Source: Whitmania pigra
Lineage: Eukaryota > Annelida > Clitellata > Hirudinida > Haemopidae
Assembly: GCA_021613335.1 (NCBI GenBank)
Contig: JAJTWR010000254.1
Span: 1,191,501-1,255,500 of the forward strand
Direction: 5' to 3'
Length of the DNA: 64,000 nucleotides
Part shown: positions 25,839 to 42,504 of the stretch, in pieces
Layout of the letters: each line of letters opens with the position of its first letter
Numbering within the stretch: position 1 is the stretch's first letter
Notes under the pieces: model-generated
Databases searched by the model: none
Told to the model about the DNA's origin: nothing
What the model saw: the letters and a program-made list of their open reading frames with translations, nothing else
Translations under genes and position numbers: made by a program

Positions 25839-26294
25839 TCAGAGATCTGCAAAACGGACTGGGGGTTTGGAGATCCTTCCTGACCTAGTCCGGTATTCAG
25901 TCATAGTAGAATCAGTGGGGTGTACTGAAGGTGCTTCAGTCGGTTCTTGGTTGTTTTCATTGACCTCTATGGGCTCATCCGTTTGAACTGAAATGACTGG
26001 AGGAGATTCCTCTGTGGCTATGAGATGACGCCGATTTCTCCTGAGTTTTCCACCCGACTCGGTAGTCATGATGTACGATCGAGGGGCGTCATGCTTGTTG
26101 TCCACTTGTCCTAGAATCCACTGGCCCTGATGACGTATTCTAACTGTTTCTCCTGGCTGCAGTTCTGGTAGGCTACGAGCTCCTCTGTCGTAGTACATCT
26201 TCTGCAAGTTTTTTAGTTGTTTCTGGCCATTAACCGCTTGGGGCATAAGCAGAGACTTTGGAGCTGGCAGTTTAGTTCGAAGAGCTCTACTCAT
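25839..26294 (-). pseudogene. Gypsy integrase C-terminal region
   Basis: Open frame of 151 codons following the integrase core in another frame. It contains LPELQPGETVRIRHQGQWI, the SH3-like DNA-binding tail of Ty3/gypsy integrases, and ends TRSGRISKPPVRFADL, a common end of this clade. The polypurine tract TAAGGGGAGA lies just before the LTR at 25790-25781. Confidence 0.85.
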
Positions 26295-28126
26295 AAGAAG
26301 CTGGGCTGGACTGAAGGTATCATACTTCCAGTGATTGGAGAGGTACGGTATTGCAAAAGACCTATATGAGCGTCTGTTCCTCCTTCATAAGCCTTCTTTA
26401 ATAGCTTCTTCACTGTCTGAATTGCTCTTCCTGCTTGGCCATTGCTTTGGGTATAGTTGGGACTTGAAGTGACTAGTTGAAAATTCCACTCGGCAGCAAA
26501 TTTTTTCATGACTATGCTCGAACTAGGCATGTTGTCAGCCATGACGAGTTCGGGAATTCCATGACGAGCAAAAACTTCCTTCAGTTGATCCATCACAGAG
26601 ATTGCCGTTTTTCCTTTCAAGAGGCCCACTTCCGGATATTTGGAGTAGTAATCAACCACTATTAGGTAGTCTTTGCCATCTAGAGAAAAAATATCAACTC
26701 CAACTTTTTCCCAAGGTCGATCTGGAATGGGGTGTGGGATCAAGGGCTCTTTAGGTTGCATGTTCCTATATTTACTACAGATGTTGCACCTTTTCACTAA
26801 TTGCTCAATGTCACGCGACATATTTGGCCAAAATAGTGCAAGGTCTGCCTTGCATTTCTCAATCCCTAGATGTCCTTCGTGAATCCTTCTAAGCATATCA
26901 GGCCTAAGTTTCGAAGGAACTATTATCCGGTCAAGGTAGAATAAGATACCCTCGGCTTCGTAGATCTCTGCAAGAAAATTCTGGTAATCATGCAGTTGTT
27001 TGACAAGTTGGTTTTTTACTTCAGCATCCCAGCATAGCAAGGCTTGACGTAGCTTTGTTAGCTCTGGGTCACAACTGGTTGCTTCCTTAAAGACGTCTAG
27101 CATGCGTAGACTTACTGGCGTATTGTGAAGCACTGAATGTATTGTAACATTAATGTCTTCTTCAACTTCAATCTCTGAGGGAGTCTGGGGAATTGTAAGG
27201 TAAGCTCTAGACAAGGCGTCTGCAACAAACATGAGCTTGCCTGGTGTGTAGACCACTTTGAGATTGAACTTAAGTAGTCTGAGCAACATTCTCTGAAGTC
27301 GTGGAGTGGTTGCTGCTATGGGCTTGCGAAAAATGGCTTCCAGTGGGCGATGATCACTCTGGATGATGGTCAGTTGTCCATAGATAAATTGGTAAAATTT
27401 TTCACAAGCAAAGACTATTGCTAATAGCTCCTTCTCAATTTGAGCATAGCGGGTTTCTGCATCTGTTAGAGCTCTTGAAGCATATGCTATCGGTTGTCCT
27501 TCTTGAAAAAGACAAGACCCTAATCCTGATGAAAAGGCGTCAGTTTGGATAGTGATCTGCTTGGTAGGATCAAAAAATCTCAATGTTGGGTCTTTTAATA
27601 TGATGTCTTTCAATGCTTCAAATGCTTTTCTGTGTTGAGCTGCCCAGGTCCACGTCATGCCTTCTTTCATCAGCATTCTCAGTGGATCTGTCATTGATGA
27701 AAAATTGGGAATGAACTTTGAGAGGTAAGTCACCATGCCTAAGAATCTATGAAGTTCTTTCTTGTTGGTTAGTGCTTCTAACTTTTCAATTGCCTGGATT
27801 TTGTTGGGATCTGGACTGACTCCCTTTTCCGACAATAAGTGACCTAGGTATCGGACTTGATGTACCTTGTACTGAAGCTTCGACTTATTGAATTTTACGT
27901 TGTGCTGTGGTGCTCGTTCCAACACTTTCCTAAAAGTTTCATCGTGCTCAGCCTCATTTCTCCCTGCGATAATAAGGTCGTCAAAGACTATGAGGACATT
28001 CGGTATGTCACCGAATGTATCAGTGTTTCTCTTCTGAAACACTTCGGGTGCTGACGTTATGCCAAATGGGAGACGAGTAAAGGAATATCTTCCAAATTGG
28101 CTGGAACAACCTGGAACTCTCTTCAT
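26291..28126 (-). pseudogene. Gypsy pol: RT palm to integrase core
   Basis: A 611-codon frame holding the second half of reverse transcriptase with the catalytic VFDDLIIAG, RNase H starting TDAFSSGLGSC and with ADALSRA after it, the HHCC zinc finger of integrase (HEGHLGIEK...CNICSKY) and the integrase core with GVDIF and VMADN. At the third catalytic position the family has Glu in NGQAERAIQ; here it reads NGQAGRAIQ, so the integrase lacks its catalytic Glu. The upstream reverse transcriptase part lies in another frame (28622-28020), so the pol gene is broken. Confidence 0.92.
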
Positions 28127-28622
28127 CCAGCTTTATTTGATGAAAACCATCCTTCATATCAATGATGGTGAACACAGTCATGCCATGGAGTTGTGCTGTA
28201 ACATCCTCACATGTGGGAATAGCATAGTGTTCCCTTTTTATGGCGGTATTCAGGTCTCTTGGATCGAGACACAATCTGATAGATCCATCCTTCTTTTCAA
28301 CCAGCAACAAGCTGCTCACCCATTCCGTCGGTTCATCGCGCTTAACCAAGACTCCTGCTTTAATCATCTGATCCAACTTTTGCTTGAGTTTTGGCTGGAG
28401 AGACAATGGAACACGTCTTGGAGGGTGAATTTTGGGTGTAATGGAAGCATCAACAAAAATATGGTGTTCTTTGGGATAACATCCCAATCCTTGGAAGACA
28501 TCTTGATATTCCTCTAAAGTCTTCTTTGATGCCATCTGTGTCACGCTGTCAATCCTGCTTATCAGGTTCAGCTCCAGACAACTTGGCAGGCCCAAGATTG
28601 TAGGTACTTGACGGTTGACCAC
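28020..28622 (-). pseudogene. Gypsy reverse transcriptase, fingers and first catalytic Asp
   Basis: Contains RLCLDPRDLNTAIKREHYAI and TVFTIIDMKDGFHQIKLD, the latter with the first catalytic Asp of reverse transcriptase. It runs out of frame into the downstream piece around 28110. The start of this stretch is the inner copy of the 287-bp duplication. Confidence 0.88.
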
Positions 28623-28928
28623 GAAAAAATCGGTCGGAATACTGCTTTAATCATCTGATCCAACTTTTGCTTGAGTTTTGGCTGGAGAGACAATGGAACA
28701 CGTCTTGGAGGGTGAATTTTGGGTGTAATGGAAGCATCAACAAAAATATGGTGTTCTTTGGGATAACATCCCAATCCTTGGAAGACATCTTGATATTCCT
28801 CTAAAGTCTTCTTTGATGCCATCTGTGTCACGCTGTCAATCCTGCTTATCAGGTTCAGCTCCAGACAACTTGGCAGGCCCAAGATTGTAGGTACTTGACG
28901 GTTGACCACGAAAAAATCGGTCGGAATA
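28355..28928. repeat. 287-bp tandem duplication in gypsy protease/RT
   Basis: CTGCTTTAATCATCTG recurs at 28355 and 28642, and the following 287 bp are practically identical. 287 is not a multiple of three, so the duplication breaks pol. The identity of the copies shows that it is young, after insertion. Confidence 0.95.
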
Positions 28929-29669
28929 CTTCTTCCACGATGTTGGATGAGAATGGTGACCAATCCTGCTGGGTTTACCTTGTCGTTACTAAATGAAGTG
29001 AGTACAGCTTTTGTAGTGCGAAGATGTGGACGATCTTTCAGGTGTCTGAAAACATTTTGTGATAAAATGTTCACCTCTGCACCTGTGTCTAATTTGCACC
29101 TAAGGTTGGTTTTACCCACGAGGAGTTCTTTCCACCACGATGTTTGTTGAACATTTCCAAGCTTGCACATTGACACGAAAAATGATTGCACTTCATGGAC
29201 AGGAGATGGTCTCTGTCTCGAACGAGATGTGGATCTCTGTCTTGGCGTCGTCTTGGTATTTCTACAACATTTGGCGTAATGGTTCTGTTTGCCGCAGGAC
29301 AAGCACTGCATGCCGTACGCTGGGCACTTCCTTGGTGGATGCTTTCCTCCACAGTTTCCACACTGCTTTACATCCAATGCTTGGAGATTGGTGTGGAGTG
29401 GTTTTGCGCTCTTTATAGCTAGCACCGCTGAGTTGTCGCCAGTAATACTCTTAACCTGGGCTTTGCATGACTCCGATGCTCTGCAGATGCTAACTGTTCT
29501 TTCGAGAGTGAGTTTGTCGTCTTGAAGGAATCTTTCCAGGAGCGAGCGATCCGCACATCCGAGTACGATCCTGTCTCTCGTCATAGACTCCACTTGGTCT
29601 CCGAACTCACATGACTTTGCTTGGTTCTTCAGTTTGGTAACAAATGCGTTAATCGGTTCATCCGGCAGC
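28568..29669 (-). pseudogene. Gypsy gag C-terminus, zinc knuckles, protease
   Basis: From the high-coordinate side: gag capsid end with PINAFVTKLKNQAKSCEF, two CCHC knuckles (CGNCGGKHPPRKCPAYGMQC then CLSCGKQNHYAKCC), and an aspartic protease with LDTGAEVNILS. It then runs into the first reverse transcriptase block through the duplication. Its upstream gag part lies at 35219-35538, 5.5 kb away, separated by the satellite-carrying element. Confidence 0.9.
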
Positions 29670-29725
29670 TGTGATAACACTCCCGTGAAGCTATCGGACG
29701 TTCAAAACGCTATCAGACACTAAAA

Positions 29726-32610
29726 CAGCTTAATTCAAGAGCAATTAACAGTAACTTGCACTTAACAAAGTTTTTCGAATAAGATCTCATTCTAAAGAGA
29801 TATAATCCAACTTTATCACATTAGCAAGCTCTTTGCGTAAAAACCTATAATTTTCAAGATATTTATGTTCAAACATCACGCACTAAAATCAGCCTAGAAA
29901 AACAGCCTTTAATTCAAGAGCAATTAACCGTAACTTGCACTTAACAAAGTTTTTCGAATAAGATCTCATTCTAAAGAGATATAATCCAACTTTATCACAT
30001 TAGCAAGCTCTTTGCGTAAAAACCTATAATTTTCAAGATATTTATGTTCAAACATCACGCACTAAAATCAGCCTAGAAAAACAGCCTTTAATTCAAGAGC
30101 AATTAACCGTAACTTGCACTTAACAAAATTTTTCGAATAAGATCTCATTCTAAAGAGATATATTCCAACTTTATCACATTAGCAAGCTCTTTGCGTAAAA
30201 ACCTATATTTTTCAAGATATTTATGCTCAAACATCACGCACTAAAATCAGTCTATAAAAACAGCCTTAATTCAACTGCAAAAAACTGTCACTTAGACTAA
30301 ACTATATTTTTTGAGTAAATTCTCATTTTGAAGACATAGCATCTATCTTTCTCACATTTCTAACCACTTTGCCGTCAGACACTTATTTTTCAAGTTATTG
30401 AAGCTCAAACTTTACGCATTATATGGAAAAACAGACTCATTTCAAATGCATAAAACCTTAACTTAGACTTAACCAAATGTTTCGACAAAGGCCTCATTTT
30501 AAAGATATTTAATCTCATTTTTTTAAATTTCCAAAGACTTTGCCATCAGACACTTATTTTTCAGGTTATTAAGGCTCAAATTGTACTCACTACCTCGGAA
30601 AACAGCCTCATTTCAAATGCAATTAACAGTAACTTAAACTTAACTAAATATTTCGACAAAGGTCTCATTCTAAAGAGATTTAACCTATCTTTATCAAGTT
30701 GGCAAGCCCTTTGCCATCAGACACTTATTTTTCAGGTTTATTAACGCTCAAAGTTTACGCACTAATTGTACTCACTACCTCGGAACACAGCCTCATTTCA
30801 AATGCAATTAACCGTAACTTAAACTTAACTAAATATTTCGACAAAGGTCTCATTTTAAAGATATTTAAACTATCTTTATCGATTTGGCAAGCCCTTTGCC
30901 ATCAGACACTTATTTTTCAGGTTATTAACGCTCAAAGTTTACGCACTAATTGTATTCACTGCCTCGGAACACAGCCTCATTTCAAATGCAATTAACAGTA
31001 ACTTAAACTTAACTAAATATTTCGACAAAGATCTCATTTTAAAGATATTTAAACTATCTTTATCGATTTGGCAAGCCTTTTGCCATCAGACACTTATTTT
31101 TCAGGTTATTAACGCTCAAAGTTTACGCACTAATTGTATTCACTGCCTCGGAACACAGCCTCATTTCAAATGCAATTAACAGTAACTTAAACTTAACTAA
31201 ATATTTCGACAAAGGTCTCATTCTAAAGAGATTTAACCTATCTTTATCAAGTTGGCAAGCCCTTTGCCATCAGACACTTATTTTTCAGGTTTATTAACGC
31301 TCAAAGTTTACGCACTAATTTTACGAACTGCCTCGGAACACAGCCTCATTTCAAACGCAATTAACCGTAACTTAAACTTAACTAAATATTTCGACAAAGG
31401 TCTCATTCTAAAGAGATTTAACCTATCTTTATCAAGTTGGAGAGGCCTTTGCCATCAGACACTTATTTTTCAGGTTTATTAACGCTCAAAGTTTACGCAC
31501 TAATTTTACGAACTGCCTCGGAACACAGCCTCCTTTCAAATGCAATTAACCGTAACTTAAACTTAACTAAATATTTCGACAAAGGTCTCATTCTAAAGAG
31601 ATTTAACCTATCTTTATCAAGTTGGAGAGGCCTTTGCCATCAGACACTTATTTTTCAGGTTTATTAACGCTCAAAGTTTACGCACTAACTGTACTCACTG
31701 CCTCGGAACACAGCCTCATTTCAAATGCAATTAACCGTAACTTAAACTTAACTAAATATTTCGACAAAGGTCTCATTCTAAAGAGATTTAACCTATCTTT
31801 ATCAAGTTGGAGAGGCCTTTGCCATCAGACACTTATTTTTCAGGTTTATTAACGCTCAAAGTTTACGCACTAATTTTACGTACTACATAAACAGACTCAT
31901 TTCAAATGCATAAAACCGTAACTTAACTTAACTAAATGTTTCGACAAAGGTCTCATTTTAAAAATATTTAATTCTGTTTTTTAAATTTCCAAGGCCTTTG
32001 CCATCAGACACTTATTTTTCAGGTTATTAACGCTCAAATTTACGCACTAATTTTACGTACTACATAACAGACTCATTTCAAATGCATAAAACCGTAACTT
32101 AGACTTAACTAAATGTTTCGACAAAGGTCTCATTTTAAAGATATTTAATTTCTATCTTTTTAAATTTCCAAGGCCTTTGCCATCAGACACTTATTTTTCA
32201 GGTTATTAACGTTCAAATTTCACGCACTAATTTTACGTACTACATAAACAGACTCATTTCAAATGCATAAAACCGTAACTTAGACTTAACTAAATGTTTC
32301 GACAAAGGTCTCATTTTAAAAATATTTAATTTCTGTTTTTTAAATTTCCAAGGCCTTTGCCATCAGACACTTATTTTTCAGGTTATTAACGTTCAAATTT
32401 CACGCACTAATTTTACGTACTACATAAACAGACTCATTTCAAATGCATAAAACCGTAACTTAGACTTAACTAAATGTTTCGACAAAGGTCTCATTTTAAA
32501 AATATTTAATTTCTGTTTTTTAAATTTCCAAGGCCTTTGCCATCAGACACTTATTTTGCAGGTTATTAACGCTCAAATTATTCGCATTACCTCGGAAAAC
32601 AACCTCATTT
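29726..32610. repeat. Satellite-like array, about 16 monomers of 167-185 bp
   Basis: Monomers share TTTGCCATCAGACACTTATT, TTCGACAAAGGTCTCATT and CCGTAACTTAAACTTAAC. Three subtypes occur in blocks: three near-identical units of about 178 bp on the left (29726-30260), a central block including three units of exactly 185 bp (31252, 31437, 31622), and units of about 180 bp on the right. The neighbouring units are most alike, as in arrays grown by unequal exchange. Open frames of 76-98 codons across it are by-products: 185 is not a multiple of three. Confidence 0.95.
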
Positions 32611-33021
32611 CAAATTTGAATTATTTTTATACTATACACGTGATAGCGGAGATGTGTTGTCACTACTCTTCCATTGTCAAATAGTAGTCAGTTTTACCAC
32701 GTTCTATAGTCATTTGTTTCTTCATTTTTCATTGACATAATCATAAATTTTCTCATTTTCGTTAACAGTAAAATTCACAGTTTAACAATTATGTAAAGAT
32801 TCTTTCATACGTGTCATAAAAAATAATTTTGTAACCAATCACAAACGAGCAAAAAAAGTACATTATTTGTTTCAAATTTCAATGAACGGCAACAATTGGA
32901 ACCTTAAAATGAAAGTGATTGTTTATTCATTGAAGTAAAAGCATAAGAAAAATTTGAGTTGGTAAAAATGCGTATAATAATGCGTATGATAATGATAATG
33001 ACAATGACAATGACAATGGCA

Positions 33022-33390
<369 letters not shown>

Positions 33391-33399
33391 TTTACATCA

Positions 33400-35185
33400 T
33401 TTTATTAATTTTTTTGATTTGTAATTAATAATAATAAATTGAATCAACTAAATATTTTGAGTTTAGGCTAAGATTCGCATTAATTATGCGGAACGAATAA
33501 ACCCATTTCAATGAAATCCTGGAAAAAGTAGGTTTGCTATAACGGAAAACCTTTCTTGTTTTAAAAGTCTTTTACGTTAAAAATAATGTTTAAAATAACA
33601 TTTTTAAAACTTGGCAATGTAGCTACAACATAGCCAATAATAAACCCGTTATTTTGCCAATTAAATGTGTACATAAAATTATTGTTTTATGAGACTCTAT
33701 TATTTCATGCTATTTGAAAATATTATTATTTGTATTATAAACCAGATTATGAAAATGTCTCCAAGGTTTATGTCGCTCACTAGTAGATTTGAAATATCAA
33801 GTCGTGCAAGTTTCGCTATTGACTACTTTATCGTGAATATCTCTCAAACGAATTTAAATTGGAACTTCAAATTGCAGAATATGAAAGAAAACTTCATATT
33901 CTAACATGTGTAACAGAATGGGCTTTCTAAAATTGGTTGAAGTCGAGATTTTAGGCACTTTTATGCAGTGTTGCAGATCATTTGTTATATCTTTCTAAAT
34001 ATGAAGTTCAAAAGTTTTTTTCTGTGATTATAATATTAGTTAGATTGTAATTACCTATAAATTTATAAAATTATTCTTAAACGAAAATGAATGTTTGTTT
34101 TAAACACATTTTTATTAATATCTTGCTAAATATATGTAGTTAGAATTTCAACTTCAGACATGTTTGTCTCCAAGTCATTGGTGATATTTAAATGTAGTAC
34201 TTGTACTTTAGAATGTAGTATTAAAAGAATTTGAACGCAATTTTACGCTAATATATTCATTTCAATATTGTTCACCTTTAAACACACTATACTCTCGATC
34301 TCCTATTGTCTCGATTACGATAAACTCAACAGAATCGATCTGAAAAAAAAAACAAGGATATGGATTTAATTCTCAGCATGGAATATAGGCATAAAAAAAA
34401 TTAGCCCTTGGTCTGAGTCAACCTTAAGACAAAAGGGGTCATCCATAAAAAACGCCCGAAAATGGTGGAGCGCTTCTAAAGCATACTAATGCTGAAGGGG
34501 GAGGGCAATTATTTTTGTTGAATAAAAACGAAATAATTTTTAAATTTTAGAAATGTATATGTTTTAATGATTTTATTTTAATTTTTTAAATATTATTTTA
34601 TTGACATTTGGGTACGTCCATAAAGTATGTCATGCTCGAGGAGGATGTCTAAGAAATTGTGACAAATTAAAAATTACAGTTAAGATTTATTGTGGACGTC
34701 TTTGTGGACGACCCCCAAAGAGAAAAAGCGTCTTCTAATTCAAATTTTGTTTGGTTTCTGTGCGCGCAAATAGAAAAGTTGCCGTCACTACATAACTACG
34801 CTTGAGATTCTAGTTAACTTTATTTTGATGATTTCTTATTTTCTTTTTAATTTTTAAAATGTTCAAAGGAAGACGTCAATAATCGTAATGTCTTATTAAT
34901 CTCCAGTTATATTCTGGGGATCGGCTTCAAAAGATCGACATTTTGATAAGGACACCGCAACTTAACAAAAAGTTAAAATTGTTAATTAACTAAACATAAT
35001 TGCAATTGTTTTTATAAACACATTTCTTTCAGTACACCATATTTCAGACATTTTTGTTATTTTTGAGATTATCCCCATATCCAAAAATACATCAATATAT
35101 CAACAACCGGCCACATTTGTTTATTTACATTTTATTACCCGGCTGCCCATACTTGCTTGTTGTTATTTATATTTACATCACCCAG
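33400..35185. other. Right arm of the satellite-carrying element, no gene seen
   Basis: AT-rich; the longest open frame (33689-33904) has no motif. No transposase was recognised, which is why the element is called non-autonomous. Confidence 0.5.
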
Positions 35186-35872: not shown

Positions 35873-35994
35873 CCCGAAAATAAGCCCTAGCTTGATTTAT
35901 CAAGATGCTTGTGATAAGCCCTCCCCCGGAAATAAGCCCTAGTTAAGATTGTCAGTCGGCATTTAGGCTATAATTTGTTGAATTGTAAGCTATT
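35873..35994. repeat. ACCGTGTTTCCCC / AAATAAGCCCT repeat family, copy 2
   Basis: Starts ACCGTGTTTCCCCGAAAATA and holds three AAATAAGCCCT words. It matches 9757-9900 and continues after the second gypsy at 40508. The same outer end occurs inverted at 12214-12231. Confidence 0.6.
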
Positions 35995-36327
35995 TGTTGT
36001 GGTGAGGAACCAATGAGAGTGGAGCGCGCCATGAACACAATGGAACATGTTCTATAAATAGCCTTGAGCTATCGCTCACTCTCTCGGTGCGCCCGCATGG
36101 CCTAACGGTTAAGGCGGCACTCTCACGATGGCAGCACGGGATTCAAATCCCGCTGCGGGTGCACCGTCCTAATCATCTAGCTATGCAACGGACGTTAATA
36201 AAGCATTACTTTACTTTTTTTGCTCACTCTCTCTCTCTCATGTAGTGACCGTGTGTAGTTGTTGTTTACTTGTGAATAAACCGTTACGTTAAACCTTGCC
36301 TTTCTTCGGGATCTCAGAGATATAACA
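35995..36327 (+). repeat. 5' LTR of the second gypsy, with SINE inside
   Basis: TGTTGTGG to ATATAACA, interrupted at 36086-36221 by a SINE with a 12-bp duplication. TATAAATAG at about 36053 is the probable LTR promoter TATA box. Confidence 0.9.
36086..36221 (+). mobile_element. tRNA-headed SINE with LINE-type tail
   Basis: 136 bp. The head is tRNA-like: a 7-bp acceptor-type pairing (GCCCGCA with TGCGGGT), an A-box TGGCCTAACGG, a B-box within GGGATTCAAATCCC, which also forms the T arm. The anticodon arm does not pair, so it is not a working tRNA gene. The tail (CGTCC...GGACG stem, then TTAATAAA and T-rich end) is shared with the RNase H LINE in the 3' LTR. Duplication GCTCACTCTCTC at 36074-36085 and 36222-36233. 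Confidence 0.87.
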
Positions 36328-36330
36328 TTT

Positions 36331-36343
36331 TGGCGACGAGGAT
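36331..36343 (+). promoter_or_regulatory. Primer-binding site of the second gypsy
   Basis: TGGCGACGAGGAT three bases after the LTR end, a standard gypsy arrangement. Confidence 0.7.
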
Positions 36344-37292
36344 GGGATCCGAAGATAAATTCGTTTTTATGATTACGATGTTCATGGAAGAAAGCAAGAA
36401 ACGAGACGAAGAAAACAAGAAACGCGACGAACTTTTGTTGCAACTGTTGGAGAAGGTCAATCTTCACTCGACTACACATCGTCAAGGCGAAGAACTGATC
36501 ACGGAAATGATCAGTAAGACTCAGACCTTCAACTACGATCCTGAACATGGAGGCACGTTCACAAAATGGATCGAACGTTTCGAAGATGCAGTTGCAACTC
36601 ACGGTTCACGATTGTCGGAGGAGGAGAGAGCGAGGGTGCTGGTGATGAAACTTGATACAGAAGTGTACAACCTGTTCCGGGACCACATTCGACCAAGGTC
36701 AACAAAGGATCTGAAGTATGATGAGGTCAAGGCAATCTTGGAGACGTTGTTTGGAGACAAAGATAGTATCTTCAGACGCAGATATGACGCACTCCGGGTT
36801 ACGCTTGAGGACATGAACTTCAGAGCATACACCACGAAGGTCAACAGAATGTGCGAGCTGGCACGGGTAGATGAATTGACAAAAGAGCAATTTAAATGCC
36901 TGATTTACATTTCTGGGATGAAGGTGCAAGCACACGCCGACTTCCGAACAAGGTTGCTGCAGAAGTTGGAGCTGCAACCAAACTGCACACTGGAGGACTT
37001 GAACAATGAATGCGAACACATTCTGACTCTGAGAAAAGATGCAAGTGCCATCGGAGAAGTCCCAAGTGCTGTGCAGGTGGTCCAGAGAAACAGCAGAAGG
37101 AAGCCTCGACCAGAGTTCCGTAGCAAAGAACCCGGCCGACCCTCAACTGTAAGGAGATGTTTCATCTGTGACGAGACAACTCATCTGGCAAAGAGTTGTC
37201 CCAAGAAATTGAGAGTAAAGAAGATCGATGACAACCAAAAAAAGGGGGAAAAGGAAATTTGCCAAGATCGATTTTGGAAGCATCAAGATTGA
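36342..37292 (+). CDS. Gag polyprotein of the second gypsy
   Basis: 316 residues from the ATG at 36342. Gag forms the capsid and binds RNA. It begins with a charged helical stretch (EESKKRDEENKKRDELLLQL), then the capsid region with FTKWIERFEDAVATHG and LETLFGDKDSIFRRRYDAL. Near the end is one CCHC-type zinc knuckle (CFICDETTHLAKSC). The frame is intact. Pol overlaps it in another frame from 37228, as expected for translation by frameshifting. The wording resembles the K02A2.6-like gypsy group of invertebrates; that comparison is from memory and not checked. Confidence 0.88.
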   Translation: MGSEDKFVFMITMFMEESKKRDEENKKRDELLLQLLEKVNLHSTTHRQGEELITEMISKTQTFNYDPEHGGTFTKWIERFEDAVATHGSRLSEEERARVLVMKLDTEVYNLFRDHIRPRSTKDLKYDEVKAILETLFGDKDSIFRRRYDALRVTLEDMNFRAYTTKVNRMCELARVDELTKEQFKCLIYISGMKVQAHADFRTRLLQKLELQPNCTLEDLNNECEHILTLRKDASAIGEVPSAVQVVQRNSRRKPRPEFRSKEPGRPSTVRRCFICDETTHLAKSCPKKLRVKKIDDNQKKGEKEICQDRFWKHQD

Positions 37293-37947
37293 TATGCAGC
37301 TTGACTCGGGTGCAGATGTAACCATCATCAACGCGGACACATGGGAGAAAATTGGAGCTCCAGATCTGGACAAGTCTTCAGTGTCACTGTCAGCTGCAAA
37401 TGGCACCCCGATTGAGGTACTTGGTTGTTTCGATGTGCAATTCCGCTGCCAAGGGTTCACTGGCCATGGTCGCTGCTTCGTGGCTAAGGATGTGGACCAG
37501 CTTTTGGGCATTGAATGGCTGGACCAGTTCCCACCATTTGCGAAGGCCTTCAACGCCATCTGTTGTCAAGTGGAACAGAGAACAGTTGAAGTAGGAGGTC
37601 TGTCCCAAGAATTGTCCAACAGACACCCAGAGGTCTTCAAGGAGGAACTGGGCCGATGCTCCATGAAGAAGGCAGAACGTTTTGTGGACACCTTCAAGAG
37701 GACTTTTCAGAAGTTGAGAGGGGAGGGAGCCACAGCAGAAAACTGCATTGGACGACAGTTGAGGACTCCGGTAAGTGACCTACAGTTGCAGAGTCATCTA
37801 CAACAGGAAGCGATGAAAGGCAAAGCGCAGCAGATGCGCAAGGTACATCGCAGGGAGTTTGCCGAAGGGGACACAGTGTACTTGAGGCTGTATGAAGATC
37901 CACGAGGTCGATGGGCCCAAGGAGTGGTCATCAGAAGACTTGGATGA
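37228..37947 (+). pseudogene. Deleted pol: protease joined to integrase tail
   Basis: Protease with MQLDSGADVTIINADTW and a conserved LLGIEWLDQF near its end. After HPEVFKEELGRC, where the reverse transcriptase begins in intact elements, the text jumps to integrase C-terminal sequence with TAENCIGRQLRTPVSDL and FAEGDTVYLRLYEDP. The active sites of reverse transcriptase, RNase H and integrase are all absent. The frame then shifts, and the last integrase part (DVRCNSKIVKRHANQLRPR) is read in the frame of 37892-38245. The element cannot move by itself. Confidence 0.9.
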
Positions 37948-38326
37948 TGTCCGATGCAACAGCAAGATTGTCAAACGACACGCGAATCAGCTGAGACCTC
38001 GGACAGTGGAAGACGCCTTCAACGTCATGATGGATACCTTTAACCTGCCTCTACTGCCCCTCAGCCAACCGGAAGGTAACAACATGAGTGCTACAGAGCC
38101 CAGCACGACAGAAGTTCTTATCGAAGCAGACCATGCCCCACGACCAAAGAGGAGACGCCGACCGCCGAAGAGATTGGAGATGGACGCGTCCAAGAAGAAG
38201 TACGAACTTGTTAGGGGGGGAGGTGTTGTGGTGAGGAACCAATGAGAGTGGAGCGCGCCATGAACACAATGGAACATGTTCTATAAATAGCCTTGAGCTA
38301 TCGCTCACTCTCTCTAACTCTCAAGG

Positions 38327-40261
38327 ATGGGCATCAAGGGGAAACCCTTGATGTGGATCCACAATTTCCTTCAGGATAGATCTATCCAAGTGAGGGTTGG
38401 ATCCTCCCTCTCTGAACCGGTCACCCTAGAGAATGGCACACCACAGGGTAGCATCCTGAGCCCGTTGTTATTCATCATCATGATGAACTCTGTTCCGGAA
38501 CCGACAAACGGGGTCGAGCTGTCCATGTATGCCGATGACATTGCTCTTTGGACGTCCGGAACGTCCATAGAAGCACTGACATCGAAAATGCAGAAACAGC
38601 TCGACAAAATGGCTAAGTTTCTATTTGCTAATGGTTTTAAGATCTCCGCATCTAAATCACAAGCAGTCCTTTTTTCAGAATACCAGAATCAGACGAGGAA
38701 TGCGGGCATCAGACTGAGGGTCGGAGCGGAGGAGATCCCCCTGTCCAATACAGCCACCTTTTTAGGAATCGTCCTGGACGCAAGACTAAACTGGAAGGCC
38801 CACGCAGAGTCTGTCAAGACGAGATGCAACAAGAGGCTCAACGCCATGAAAGCCATCTCGGGCAGTTCGTGGGGGGCGAGCAAATCCACCCTGCTCACAG
38901 TCTACAGAGCCACCATCCGCTCTGTTCTCGATTATGGATCTGAGGTAATCGACCTGGGGCGCAAGCAGATTCGAGACACATACGACAGTCTTCAGTATCA
39001 GGCACTGAAGATCTGCTGCGGTGCCATGAAGGGCACAAGTGCCTCGTCTTTGCGGGTGGAGTGCGGTGAGCTTCCCCTCGACCTTCGTCGTAAGAAGCTC
39101 ATGGCAAACCACGCCCTCAGGTCGTTCGCCACCAATAATGTACCTGTTAAAAATAAATATTTCATTTCAGAGCCAAAGTCCCAAGTCGAAGTGAGGTTCC
39201 ACTGCAGGATGAGGATAAGAGGCGAGGAGCCTCCGCACAAGAAAGTCGAGTCAGTGATCCCAGCAGATCTCCTGGAAGACATCAGGGAGGCACCTCCCAG
39301 ATTCCCTCCTTGGAGACTGAGAAAGCCGACAATCGACTCCTCGAATCTCTCCTTCGAAGCCGACAACCCTCTGCGGATGCTGGTGGCAAGGGAGAAAATA
39401 GAGGATCTCCAGGACAGCCTCCTCTGCTACACGGACGCCTCCAAGACCGAGGACAACAAGGCCGGAATTGGGATTTACATCCCAAGGAAGGAAGTAAACA
39501 TCAGTCTCAGGACGTCGAGTCACAGCTGCATTAGTTCAATCGAACTGGCAGCCATCGAGCGATGTTTACTACATGTCAAGGACTCATATCAGGAGGAGTC
39601 CTTCGACATTGTCGTCCTAAGTGACTCGCTTAGTGCCCTACAGGCACTAAAGGACGGCAACAATTATGCTCCCGATATTAAAAATGTACAGTTTTTAATT
39701 TCAGAAATTCAAGAGAGCGGCAGAAAGGTCACTCTCGTCTGGGTCCCTGCCCACGTTGGAATCCCTGGCAATGAGAAGGCCGATGCCCTGGCAAAGGCAG
39801 CCACTGCAAGGGATCAGATAGACCTCCGGATTCCGGCGTCTATCAAGGATGTCAAAAGGTCCGTAGCCCGCAACATCTTCCAACAGTGGCAGACCAGATG
39901 GGATGAAGATCCTAGAAGCCTACATTATAAGTCCATAGAGAAACAAGTGTCGACGAAGAGCAAGTTCCAATGTGTCTCAAGGAGGAAGGAGGTTCTCATC
40001 TCCAGACTCCGAGTTGGAAAGTGTGCTCTGAATCAGCACTTGTTTCTCATGAAACGGCACCCAGACGGGAGGTGCGAGAAGTGCCCTCAGGAAGACGAAA
40101 GTGTGCAGCATTTCCTCATGGAATGCCCAGCCCAGTCATCCCTGAGGAGAGAAATCAAGATGTTTACAGGTCTATCCGACATGAAATCCATGCTTAGCAA
40201 CCCAGCAAGTGTGGACATCATTTATCGGTGGATCTGCAAAAACAGATGCGGCTTACTATAA
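38327..40261 (+). CDS. LINE polyprotein: reverse transcriptase, RNase H, zinc knuckle
   Basis: A 644-codon frame, open to its stop. Order: the end of reverse transcriptase with TPQGSILSPLLF and the catalytic MYADDIALW; thumb with TATFLGIVLDARLNWKAH; connection region with SSWGASKSTLLTVYRATIRS; RNase H with the four expected blocks LLCYTDASK, SSIELAAIE, LSDSLSALQAL and PAHVGIPGNEKADALAK; and a C-terminal CCHC-like zinc motif (CEKCPQEDESVQHFLMEC). Reverse transcriptase followed by RNase H points to the I/Jockey-related LINE groups. The N-terminal endonuclease and the front half of reverse transcriptase are missing by truncation, so the copy is dead although its frame is clean, which means it is young. 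Confidence 0.93.
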   Translation: MGIKGKPLMWIHNFLQDRSIQVRVGSSLSEPVTLENGTPQGSILSPLLFIIMMNSVPEPTNGVELSMYADDIALWTSGTSIEALTSKMQKQLDKMAKFLFANGFKISASKSQAVLFSEYQNQTRNAGIRLRVGAEEIPLSNTATFLGIVLDARLNWKAHAESVKTRCNKRLNAMKAISGSSWGASKSTLLTVYRATIRSVLDYGSEVIDLGRKQIRDTYDSLQYQALKICCGAMKGTSASSLRVECGELPLDLRRKKLMANHALRSFATNNVPVKNKYFISEPKSQVEVRFHCRMRIRGEEPPHKKVESVIPADLLEDIREAPPRFPPWRLRKPTIDSSNLSFEADNPLRMLVAREKIEDLQDSLLCYTDASKTEDNKAGIGIYIPRKEVNISLRTSSHSCISSIELAAIERCLLHVKDSYQEESFDIVVLSDSLSALQALKDGNNYAPDIKNVQFLISEIQESGRKVTLVWVPAHVGIPGNEKADALAKAATARDQIDLRIPASIKDVKRSVARNIFQQWQTRWDEDPRSLHYKSIEKQVSTKSKFQCVSRRKEVLISRLRVGKCALNQHLFLMKRHPDGRCEKCPQEDESVQHFLMECPAQSSLRREIKMFTGLSDMKSMLSNPASVDIIYRWICKNRCGLL

Positions 40262-40346
40262 GCCTTTTACAATTTTACCATAACTAATTAATGCAGTTTA
40301 TTATCCTATTACTTTTCATTTTTACTAACTTACTAACATTAACTAA

Positions 40347-40377
40347 AGTCCAAATCATCTCAGTTATGCAACGGACT
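40347..40377 (+). other. LINE 3' stem-loop shared with SINE
   Basis: AGTCC, a loop with ATCATCTCAGTTATGCAAC, and GGACT. In the SINE (36165-36194) and the minus-strand copy at 56276-56247 the outer pair changes from A-T to C-G on both sides, so pairing is conserved while sequence is not. Probably the structure the LINE reverse transcriptase recognises. Confidence 0.75.
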
Positions 40378-40599
40378 ATAATCAAATAAATAAATAAATA
40401 AATAAGCTCACTCTCTCTCTCTCTCATGTAGTGACCGTGTGTAGTTGTTGTTTACTTGTGAATAAACCGTTACGTTTGCCTTTCTTCGGGATCTCAGAGA
40501 TATAACACTATTAGTGTAATATCACTACAATTTCAGTGAAATATTAATATAATAGAGTACAAATAATAAAAGTTATATTTATAATCGGCGTTCGTTTTC

Positions 40600-42173: not shown

Positions 42174-42504
42174 CAGGGGTACTCAAACTTTTTTGGCCGG
42201 GGTCCACATTACGTAATTTTCAGAAAAGTAAAAAGTAATGAATTAATATTAAAATGCTGTCAGACTTTTTATTTAGTGTGATGCATGGAACTGTTTGTCC
42301 TTCATGACTTCTATTGTCAGAACTGATAAAGCCAATTTCTTGGAGCAAGGGTATTGACCCTCAATTACAAACTTAGACCAGAATTCAGAATATTTTAACT
42401 TTTTAAATTTTTAAATTTATTTTTTTTGGAAATAATTGGAGGTCCACTTAAAAGCTATCGGCGGTCCGGATTGTGGACCGCGGTCCGCAGTTTGAGTACC
42501 CCTG
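42174..42504. mobile_element. hAT-type MITE (331 bp)
   Basis: Left end CAGGGGTACTCAAACT, right end its reverse complement (AGTTTGAGTACCCCTG). Flanks ATATAGAC (42166-42173) and ATATATAC (42505-42512) differ at one of eight bases, fitting an old 8-bp duplication. No coding capacity. CAGGGGT-xx-CAAACT ends are typical for hAT MITEs. Confidence 0.85.

Follow-up and report, generated by a model that had tools for sequence, protein, structure and literature searches.

A SINE/LINE pair in Whitmania pigra whose target sites mostly lie about 20 bp past a TATA-like box

In Whitmania pigra, a SINE and a LINE have inserted at the same base of the two LTRs of one gypsy-type element. The target sites collected from the genome suggest that a single LINE machinery probably moves both elements and that a TATA box upstream, not the sequence at the cut, sets the target; a tether through TBP and capture of the promoter by the new copy would be parts of this reading. 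The window (the whole stretch of DNA that was analysed) comprises 64,000 nucleotides of contig JAJTWR010000254.1 from assembly GCA_021613335.1, and the features discussed are listed in Table 1.

The host LTR element and its refilled site

Table 1. Features of the host LTR element and its two inserts (window coordinates)
Feature	Position	Strand	Basis
Target duplication CTATT, 5 bp, left of LTR element	35990..35994	.	sequence
5' LTR (TG...CA) of gypsy-type element, split by SINE	35995..36327	+	repeats D6, D8, D10
TATA box TATAAATA of 5' LTR, nick position 21 bp downstream	36053..36060	+	sequence; position family-wide
Upstream duplication copy GCTCACTCTCTC, 5' LTR	36074..36085	+	sequence
SINE with T-rich tail, 5' end complete; tRNA head by eye; 3' part LINE-tail-like	36086..36221	+	
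Downstream duplication copy GCTCACTCTCTC, 5' LTR	36222..36233	+	sequence
Gag-like frame of LTR element, PF23309	36345..37292	+	profile match
Aspartyl protease remnant of LTR element	37228..37947	+	
3' LTR, split by LINE	38224..40507	+	repeats
TATA box TATAAATA of 3' LTR, nick position 21 bp downstream	38282..38289	+	sequence
Upstream duplication copy GCTCACTCTCTC, 3' LTR	38303..38314	+	sequence
LINE, 5'-truncated: partial RT, RNase H, (TAAA)n tail	38315..40405	+	
LINE ORF2 remnant, 644 aa, RVT_1 PF00078 and RNase_H PF00075	38327..40261	+	
Downstream duplication copy GCTCACTCTCTC, 3' LTR	40406..40417	+	sequence
Target duplication CTATT, 5 bp, right of LTR element	40508..40512	.	sequence

Direct reading of the sequence confirms the observation of the earlier note that the two inserts share a base: the identical flank TATAAATAGCCTTGAGCTATC adjoins GCTCACTCTCTC at the SINE in the 5' LTR and at the LINE in the 3' LTR, and both entered between ATC and GCTCACTCTCTC. 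The TG...CA ends and the CTATT duplication indicate one integration of the LTR element followed by two later insertions. These were independent events, as had been proposed, and gene conversion of a single insertion, which the earlier note had raised as an alternative, was rejected, as it would not place two distinct elements with unlike truncation points on the same base. The window copy of the host retains its LTRs, the CTATT duplication and the gag-like and protease matches. No reverse transcriptase frame was found between the protease remnant and the 3' LTR, so that the element looks internally deleted, and the name gypsy rests on the gag and protease matches together with the earlier note.

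Comparison of filled and empty LTR copies, suggested earlier as a check, showed that the site has been used repeatedly. The LTR sequence ATCGCTCACTCTCTC has 42 exact matches genome-wide, and 14 of these are filled by the SINE (8) or the LINE (6) while 28 are not. A similarity comparison found 13 of the filled sites; the fourteenth (C37:139744), which went unmatched because the query LINE was 5'-truncated, was added from its visible LINE 5' end. The 3' junctions of C183:3735948 and C345:866624 were unreadable and stand outside the junction count; in each of the 12 junctions that could be read, the insert is followed by GCTCAC. One of these (C177:794161) is ambiguous, with a few extra bases before GCTCAC and a duplication scored two bases longer. 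The inserts in the filled LTR sites include truncated copies. Set against 3,138 first-look candidate copies for about 2 million TATA-like motifs (a rough figure), the filling of 14 of 42 sites makes this LTR base a recurrent insertion hot spot, well above the average TATA motif. Coincidence as the cause of the shared base was rejected on the same count.

Target sites across the genome

Target sites were drawn from 76 SINE records, reduced to 63 by removing 13 that repeated an earlier flank, and from 40 fetched LINE tails, reduced to 34 by removing 6 long copies. Removal of 12 near-duplicates and three tail-stacked records (L154 and two of L016) from these 97 sites left 82; no duplication of 8 bp or more was present in 21 of these, so that 61 remained. 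Clustering by BLAST dropped two more, and the resulting 59 sites are treated as independent; this independence is approximate since L141, L142, L152 and L157, which look related by eye, were left apart. A TATA call is a score of at least 4 bits with an approximate TBP matrix, in a motif window picked after the data had been viewed. The controls for the TATA peak were upstream windows and letter permutation, both within the flanks of this SINE/LINE pair.

A TATA box starting at -25..-15 from the duplication was called at 33 of the 59 sites (19/35 for the SINE and 14/24 for the LINE); in five windows lying farther upstream the counts were 6, 0, 7, 5 and 1 out of 59. The G+C content is 15% at -21..-14 and 37-44% around it (59 sites). 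Of the 34 sites that score, 32 have the first T of the TATA 18-23 bp from the duplication, most commonly 20, and the duplications, which are 11-14 bp long in 52 of 59 sites, span about TATA+20 to +33. Most sites have the bottom-strand nick about 20 bp past the first T of the TATA, mainly in matching orientation. Additionally, the 61 sites contain 20 instances of exact TATAAA at -21..-17 and 3 of the reverse TTTATA at -23..-20. Permuting the letters of the islands gave 9.5 ± 2.6 TATA matches (maximum 19 in 1000) against the 34 of 61 observed, and the mean best TATA score of the shuffled islands was about 10 standard deviations below that observed, which indicates that letter order counts beyond A/T content. 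Short LINE tails and 5'-truncated SINEs obey the same rule.

A score of at least 4 bits is absent in 26 of the 59 sites; some of these have weaker A/T-rich variants and some have nothing (L111, L112, L108). The variants tolerated at target sites include TATTTAAG, TTATAAAG and CTTAAAAG, which look like those accepted by TBP. The reverse strand reaches the TATA score in 23 of 59 sites, and 12 of the 40 sites scoring in either orientation score better in reverse. The motif TATATA is nearly palindromic.

No base preference was found at the nick or within the duplication across the 61 sites, and other repeatedly filled sites have unrelated duplications (CCCTCCAAATC, GAAATTTCC, AAATTGATGT and GACACTCATCCG). 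The earlier note had held that the pair strongly prefers the site CTCACTCTCTC. A strong site preference is upheld, as are the repeated filling of the LTR and a target rule that both elements share; the sequence CTCACTCTCTC was not supported, the flank check for a fixed cut sequence having shown that duplications outside the LTR share no sequence and that what the sites have in common is a TATA-like box some 20 bp before the duplication. The LTR is filled because TATAAATAG stands 21 bp upstream of the nick.

Among the targets are a second LTR-like repeat carrying CTATTTAAGG and a Tc1/Tc3-type transposase promoter (TATATAAACCC; Pfam HTH_Tnp_Tc3_1), in which the LINE lies about 20 bp past the TATA; two empty copies have the ATG 60 bp past it. 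The inserts L141, L142, L143, L152, L157 and L170 occupy a repeat that carries (G)CTATATAAATGG and is not known as a promoter. At L140 the target is a TATAAA within a reverse-transcriptase reading frame, which argues that a target need not be an active promoter. Open frames showed no enrichment behind SINE sites: 6 of 29 records have one downstream, versus 9 of 29 upstream in reverse. No tRNA genes were found in 57 loci, of which 24 are SINE loci about 2-3 kb long and 33 are LINE loci of 291 bp. Each insertion leaves the TATA and the nick site intact, so that copies stack; one locus holds nine or more copies, with nine separators at TATATAAGG+20. In the L069 stack, tail divergence shows no trend with distance from the TATA.

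Make-up of the pair and the proposed mechanism

The related 3' tails reported earlier were recovered, SINE positions ~80-117 aligning with LINE positions ~2034-2072 at about 82-85% identity over ~39 bases. By eye, the SINE head resembles a tRNA, and ARAGORN calls no tRNA gene in the window or in the 24 SINE-holding loci among the 57 scanned. Pfam identifies RVT_1 and RNase_H domains in the window LINE copy and PF03372/PF14529 (APE endonuclease) with RVT_1 in its relative P0043; a matching frame, MDNAINIIQWNCQG, is present in L006 and L179. On these domain matches, the LINE is a non-LTR retrotransposon with an APE endonuclease, RT and RNase H in ORF2. For ORF1, Pfam gives nothing above threshold and a single sub-threshold zinc knuckle. 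In six LINEs that are flanked by the duplication on both sides, the 5' leaders all differ, which suggests transcription from captured promoters. Of the six, L182 lacks an evident TATA at -20 and L185 has a weak TATA only. A search for a second genomic copy of two LINE leaders (parts, up to 3 mismatches) returned only the known copy of each, and no donor promoter was thus found.

The TATA box is a DNA signal that positions the transcription start, and transcription normally begins at about TATA+20 to +33, the distance from the TATA at which promoters melt and start. We propose that TATA-bound TBP (as TFIID or TFIIIB) would bring the LINE ribonucleoprotein to the site, much as has been proposed for Dictyostelium TRE5-A, and that the APE endonuclease would cut at the fixed distance at which a promoter opens and its transcription begins. 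The newly placed LINE could use the upstream TATA as its own promoter, which would explain the short, copy-specific LINE 5' leaders, and the SINE would retain its internal Pol III promoter and fixed 5' end. Insertion about 20 bases past a TATA explains why the SINE and the LINE stand on the same LTR base. A fuller version, quite possible if tentative, is that the preinitiation complex is what the pair reads: an occupied TATA, through its TBP, would recruit the LINE, the first cut would fall where the DNA melts, the copy would begin at the transcription start and take over the promoter, refilling would be unlimited since TATA and cut site survive, and the LINE would be promoterless, its leader changing with each host promoter.

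It is also conceivable, although unlikely, that a LINE protein (ORF1, the endonuclease or an RT extension) itself recognises TATA-like DNA, in which case neither TBP nor promoter activity would matter. The L140 target, the filled (G)CTATATAAATGG repeat and the lack of open-frame enrichment downstream of SINE sites all favor direct recognition, but such extreme hot sites (14/42 for the LTR; nine separators) among about 2 million motifs point to occupancy or accessibility, the tolerated variants resemble those that TBP accepts, and Pfam finds no DNA-binding domain in ORF1. A general preference for nucleosome-free or bent A/T-rich DNA, with which the A/T-rich island upstream of the duplications agrees, was rejected as very improbable given the fixed spacing of about 20 bp, the ordinary composition on both sides and the dependence on letter order.

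Post-insertional selection, in which insertion would occur anywhere and only TATA-adjoining copies would be expressed, amplified and retained, was rejected. A TATA about 33 bp upstream might aid expression, but selection cannot produce the refilling of one base, and the rule is obeyed by the truncated LTR inserts and by the short LINE tails (14/24), which, like the 5'-truncated SINEs, cannot be source copies; we consider this explanation extremely improbable. The same refilling is what a preference for GCTCACTCTCTC or (CT)n at the cut would produce, yet we give that idea next to no credence, as the nick and duplication lack any base preference and duplications elsewhere are unrelated. A CT-rich cut-site preference was ruled out by the target-site alignment, in which no duplications are shared.

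Relation to known systems

LINE/SINE partnerships that share a 3' tail are of a known kind, and the W. pigra pair is the same in kind, with a SINE 3' end that is LINE-tail-like and with shared targets; its novelty is the target rule, not the tail-sharing partnership. Target-specific LINEs recognise the sequence around the cut. Those of the R1, Tx1, R2 and NeSL lineages (Keno, Utopia) resemble the pair in being LINEs with fixed sites in repeated sequences. In W. pigra, by contrast, the cut sequence is free, no fixed cleavage sequence of the R1/R2 type appearing among the 61 sites, and the position depends on a box that lies about 20 bp from the cut.

The Dictyostelium elements TRE5-A, NLTR-A and NLTR-B are likewise APE-endonuclease LINEs, and their insertions keep a fixed distance to a complex that contains TBP. 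The TRE5-A ORF1 protein binds TBP, Brf1 and Bdp1, and an RNase H domain is present in NLTR-A and NLTR-B (PMC5391098, PMC5911963). TRE5-A requires Pol III A/B boxes and inserts ~40-54 bp upstream of tRNA genes in opposite orientation, whereas the W. pigra pair occupies TATA sites, including LTR and transposase promoters, with sense inserts downstream of the TATA. A TRE5-type fixed distance from tRNA genes was not seen in the 57 loci, in a scan that covered tRNA genes only. The yeast element Ty3 also inserts at the transcription start, via TFIIIB, and TBP and Brf1 are the parts required in vitro (PMC5911963), but it is an LTR element with an integrase and its targets are Pol III genes.

In the portions of PMC5391098, PMC4640811 and PMC5911963 considered, LINEs are described as targeting either fixed repeated sequences or Pol III genes, and a literature search at the level of titles and abstract openings found no TATA-directed LINE. 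Such a LINE, if true, would allow the connection of TBP with retrotransposon targeting to be tested in organisms other than yeast and Dictyostelium. The stacks are a record of repeated filling at single sites, the insertions could record promoters that are open in the germ line, and the pair might show how a promoterless LINE lives from host promoters.

LTR insertions of the SINE and LINE

Both LTRs of the gypsy-type element in the window are interrupted, the 5' LTR by a SINE whose 5' end is complete and the 3' LTR by a LINE that is truncated at its 5' end. GCTCACTCTCTC flanks each insert, and ATC directly precedes each site. Gag-like and protease frames are present in the element and no reverse transcriptase frame was seen among its window frames and domain matches, so it looks internally deleted. 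The LTR TATA box, TATAAATAG, lies 21 bp upstream of the nick (the bottom-strand cut after ATC, at the start of the target duplication). Since transcription starts ~30 bp from a TATA box, the duplication should coincide with the transcription start of the LTR itself.

Coordinates of features in the window
Feature	Position	Strand	Remarks
Second LTR-element gag-pol region	25839-29680	minus	broken across several frames (judged by eye)
Satellite-like tandem array	30000-32615		units ~171-185 bp
Short tandem repeats	32949-33406		9/12 bp
Gypsy-type LTR element	35995-40507		duplication CTATT at either end
SINE	36086-36221		tRNA-like head (by eye)
LINE	38315-40405		3' tail related to that of the SINE
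Repeat, also splitting the SINE at C21:4014365 (L064:1688-1800)	near 42190-42500		by eye

The 15-mer ATCGCTCACTCTCTC occurs 42 times in the 178-Mb genome (28 forward and 14 reverse), and when all 42 sites were classified 14 were filled (SINE 8, LINE 6) and 28 were unfilled. The earlier note, which had proposed comparing filled and empty LTR sites, was right that the SINE and LINE sit at the same LTR base, and the pattern is much larger than it stated. BLAST alignments of the SINE inserts start at SINE base 1, 2, 7, 35, 64 or 79 and the LINE inserts are a tail, a body or a copy with a 5' end; because kind and 5' truncation differ among them, the inserts are independent. GCTCAC follows the insert in 12/12 filled sites whose 3' junction lies in the fetched DNA, counting C177:794161, where extra bases precede GCTCAC and the junction is ambiguous by a few bases. 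GCTCAC also marks the 3' junction of four copies beyond the 42 (L068, L082, L126, L172); at L011, a related LTR, three SINE matches were found and the junction is less clear. The upstream duplication copy is longer at C75:78467, which indicates a constant position for the first nick and a variable one for the second.

The TATA rule

SINE flanks (63 non-redundant of 76) and 40 fetched LINE tails, 34 of them short, were collected. Removal of near-duplicates and stacked records left 82 sites, of which 61 had a duplication of 8 bp or longer and 59 remained after BLAST clustering. When the sites were aligned on the duplication start no base preference was observed at the nick or within the duplication, and the endonuclease preference for one sequence at the cut that the earlier note had proposed as the cause is replaced by a rule based on the TATA box. 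The same alignment has an A/T-rich island at -21..-14 (15% G+C vs 37-44% around it). With a TBP matrix, a score of at least 4 bits was found at -25..-15 in 33/59 sites, vs 6, 0, 7, 5 and 1 of 59 in five windows farther upstream and a background rate of 0.056 for positions drawn at random from the 64-kb window. The two elements behave similarly (SINE 19/35, LINE 14/24). Permuting the island letters reduced the count from 34/61 to 9.5 +- 2.6 (maximum 19 in 1000), so the order of the TATA letters matters and not A/T content alone. TATAAA was the commonest of seven hexamers counted (20 times at -21..-17) and TTTATA occurred three times at -23..-20; among 40 sites scoring in either orientation, forward was better in 27 and reverse in 12, with one tie. 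The duplication is 11-14 bp long in 52/59 sites. The preference is strong but not absolute, as 26/59 sites do not reach a TATA score of 4 bits. We know of no other LINE/SINE that follows such a rule, and no TATA-directed LINE or SINE was found in the mostly open-access literature searched (titles and abstract openings).

Many short LINE inserts (L135-L174, L069, L071) start on AGTCCAAATCATC or only a few bases away from it, ~59 bp from the end of the tail. This may be a favoured point of truncation, although that string was also the criterion by which the 40 tails were chosen.

Targeted TATA boxes and stacked inserts

Besides the TATA box of this LTR, a second target repeat, LTR-like by eye, carries CTATTTAAGGAGCCAGGAG, and a third target is a Tc1/Tc3-type transposase promoter (HTH_Tnp_Tc3_1), whose motif TATATAAACCCAAAGAAAGTTAAAAATTGATGT has 95 occurrences with up to 3 mismatches. 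In two empty transposase copies the ATG lies 60 bp after the TATA. Another copy has a LINE ~20 bp beyond its TATA, where the TAAA tail makes the exact base ambiguous. A scan of 57 loci for tRNA genes found none. The L140 target lies inside a reverse-transcriptase frame (CKLFADDIKLYNT), so the targeted TATA boxes are not all promoters. Additionally, there is no excess of open frames downstream of SINE sites, and on these two grounds the TATA sequence seems to be required more than gene activity. Yet some sites attract far more inserts than an average TATA motif: inserts per LTR site number 0.33 vs roughly 0.0016 per average motif, a rough figure obtained by dividing 3,138 first-look candidates by a motif number of about 2 million, itself extrapolated from the window. 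A repeat with a TATATAAATGG-like sequence was struck in six fetched LINE loci (L141, L142, L143, L152, L157, L170), and its L157 copy has a diverged TATGTAAGTG box.

Each insertion rebuilds the TATA and nick site, so the next insert can land at the same base. At L069 (with L177; C52:722780-724000) LINE/SINE tails follow one another, and nine copies of the same duplication stand between them as separators, beginning 20 bp after TATATAAGG. The five TATA-near separators are CCCTCCAAATC and the four TATA-far ones CCCCAAA(T/G), a split as would be expected if a TATA-near change passes to all later inserts. More stacks were found at L070, L071 and L072, and SINE-before-LINE pairs at L022, L038 and L081.

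Proposed tethering and LINE leaders

The duplication spans about TATA+20 to +33, the interval over which promoter DNA melts and transcription starts. A cut without preference at a fixed TATA distance is most simply read as tethering of the LINE machinery to the target site. TBP would be the obvious candidate for a tether that brings the machinery to the TATA site, by analogy with two known elements: the TRE5-A ORF1 protein binds TBP and the other TFIIIB subunits (PMC5391098, PMC5911963) and Ty3 requires TBP and Brf1 (PMC5911963). The main rival to a TBP tether is direct recognition of the TATA by a LINE protein.

A LINE copy in this same LTR (L006) has an open ORF1 of 412 aa with a sub-threshold zinc-knuckle match; this ORF1 overlaps the start of a frame matching the endonuclease of its relative P0043. 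Reverse transcriptase and RNase H were found in the window copy. In six LINE copies (L006, L179, L182, L183, L184, L185) the duplications at the two ends match, and the leaders of these copies are 13, 24, 41, 45, 71 and 84 nt long when counted to the shared GCGATARATTG/GCGATTAATTG-like start. All six leaders differ, those of L006 and L179 sharing the last part, CGTTGCGTTGACTTTTTGACATCG, and diverging before it. Three start with CAG or CAC, as does a fourth if the last shared C is assigned to the leader. Parts of each of two leaders were searched and no second copy was found in the genome. Capture of the leaders from host promoters is possible; new leaders would likewise arise if reverse transcription switched templates, and a source starting ~30 bp after a captured TATA should leave a leader of only a few bases, which the long leaders do not fit. 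The 5' start of the SINE is fixed, unlike that of the LINE, and this difference fits transcription of the LINE from changing external promoters and of the SINE from an internal Pol III promoter.
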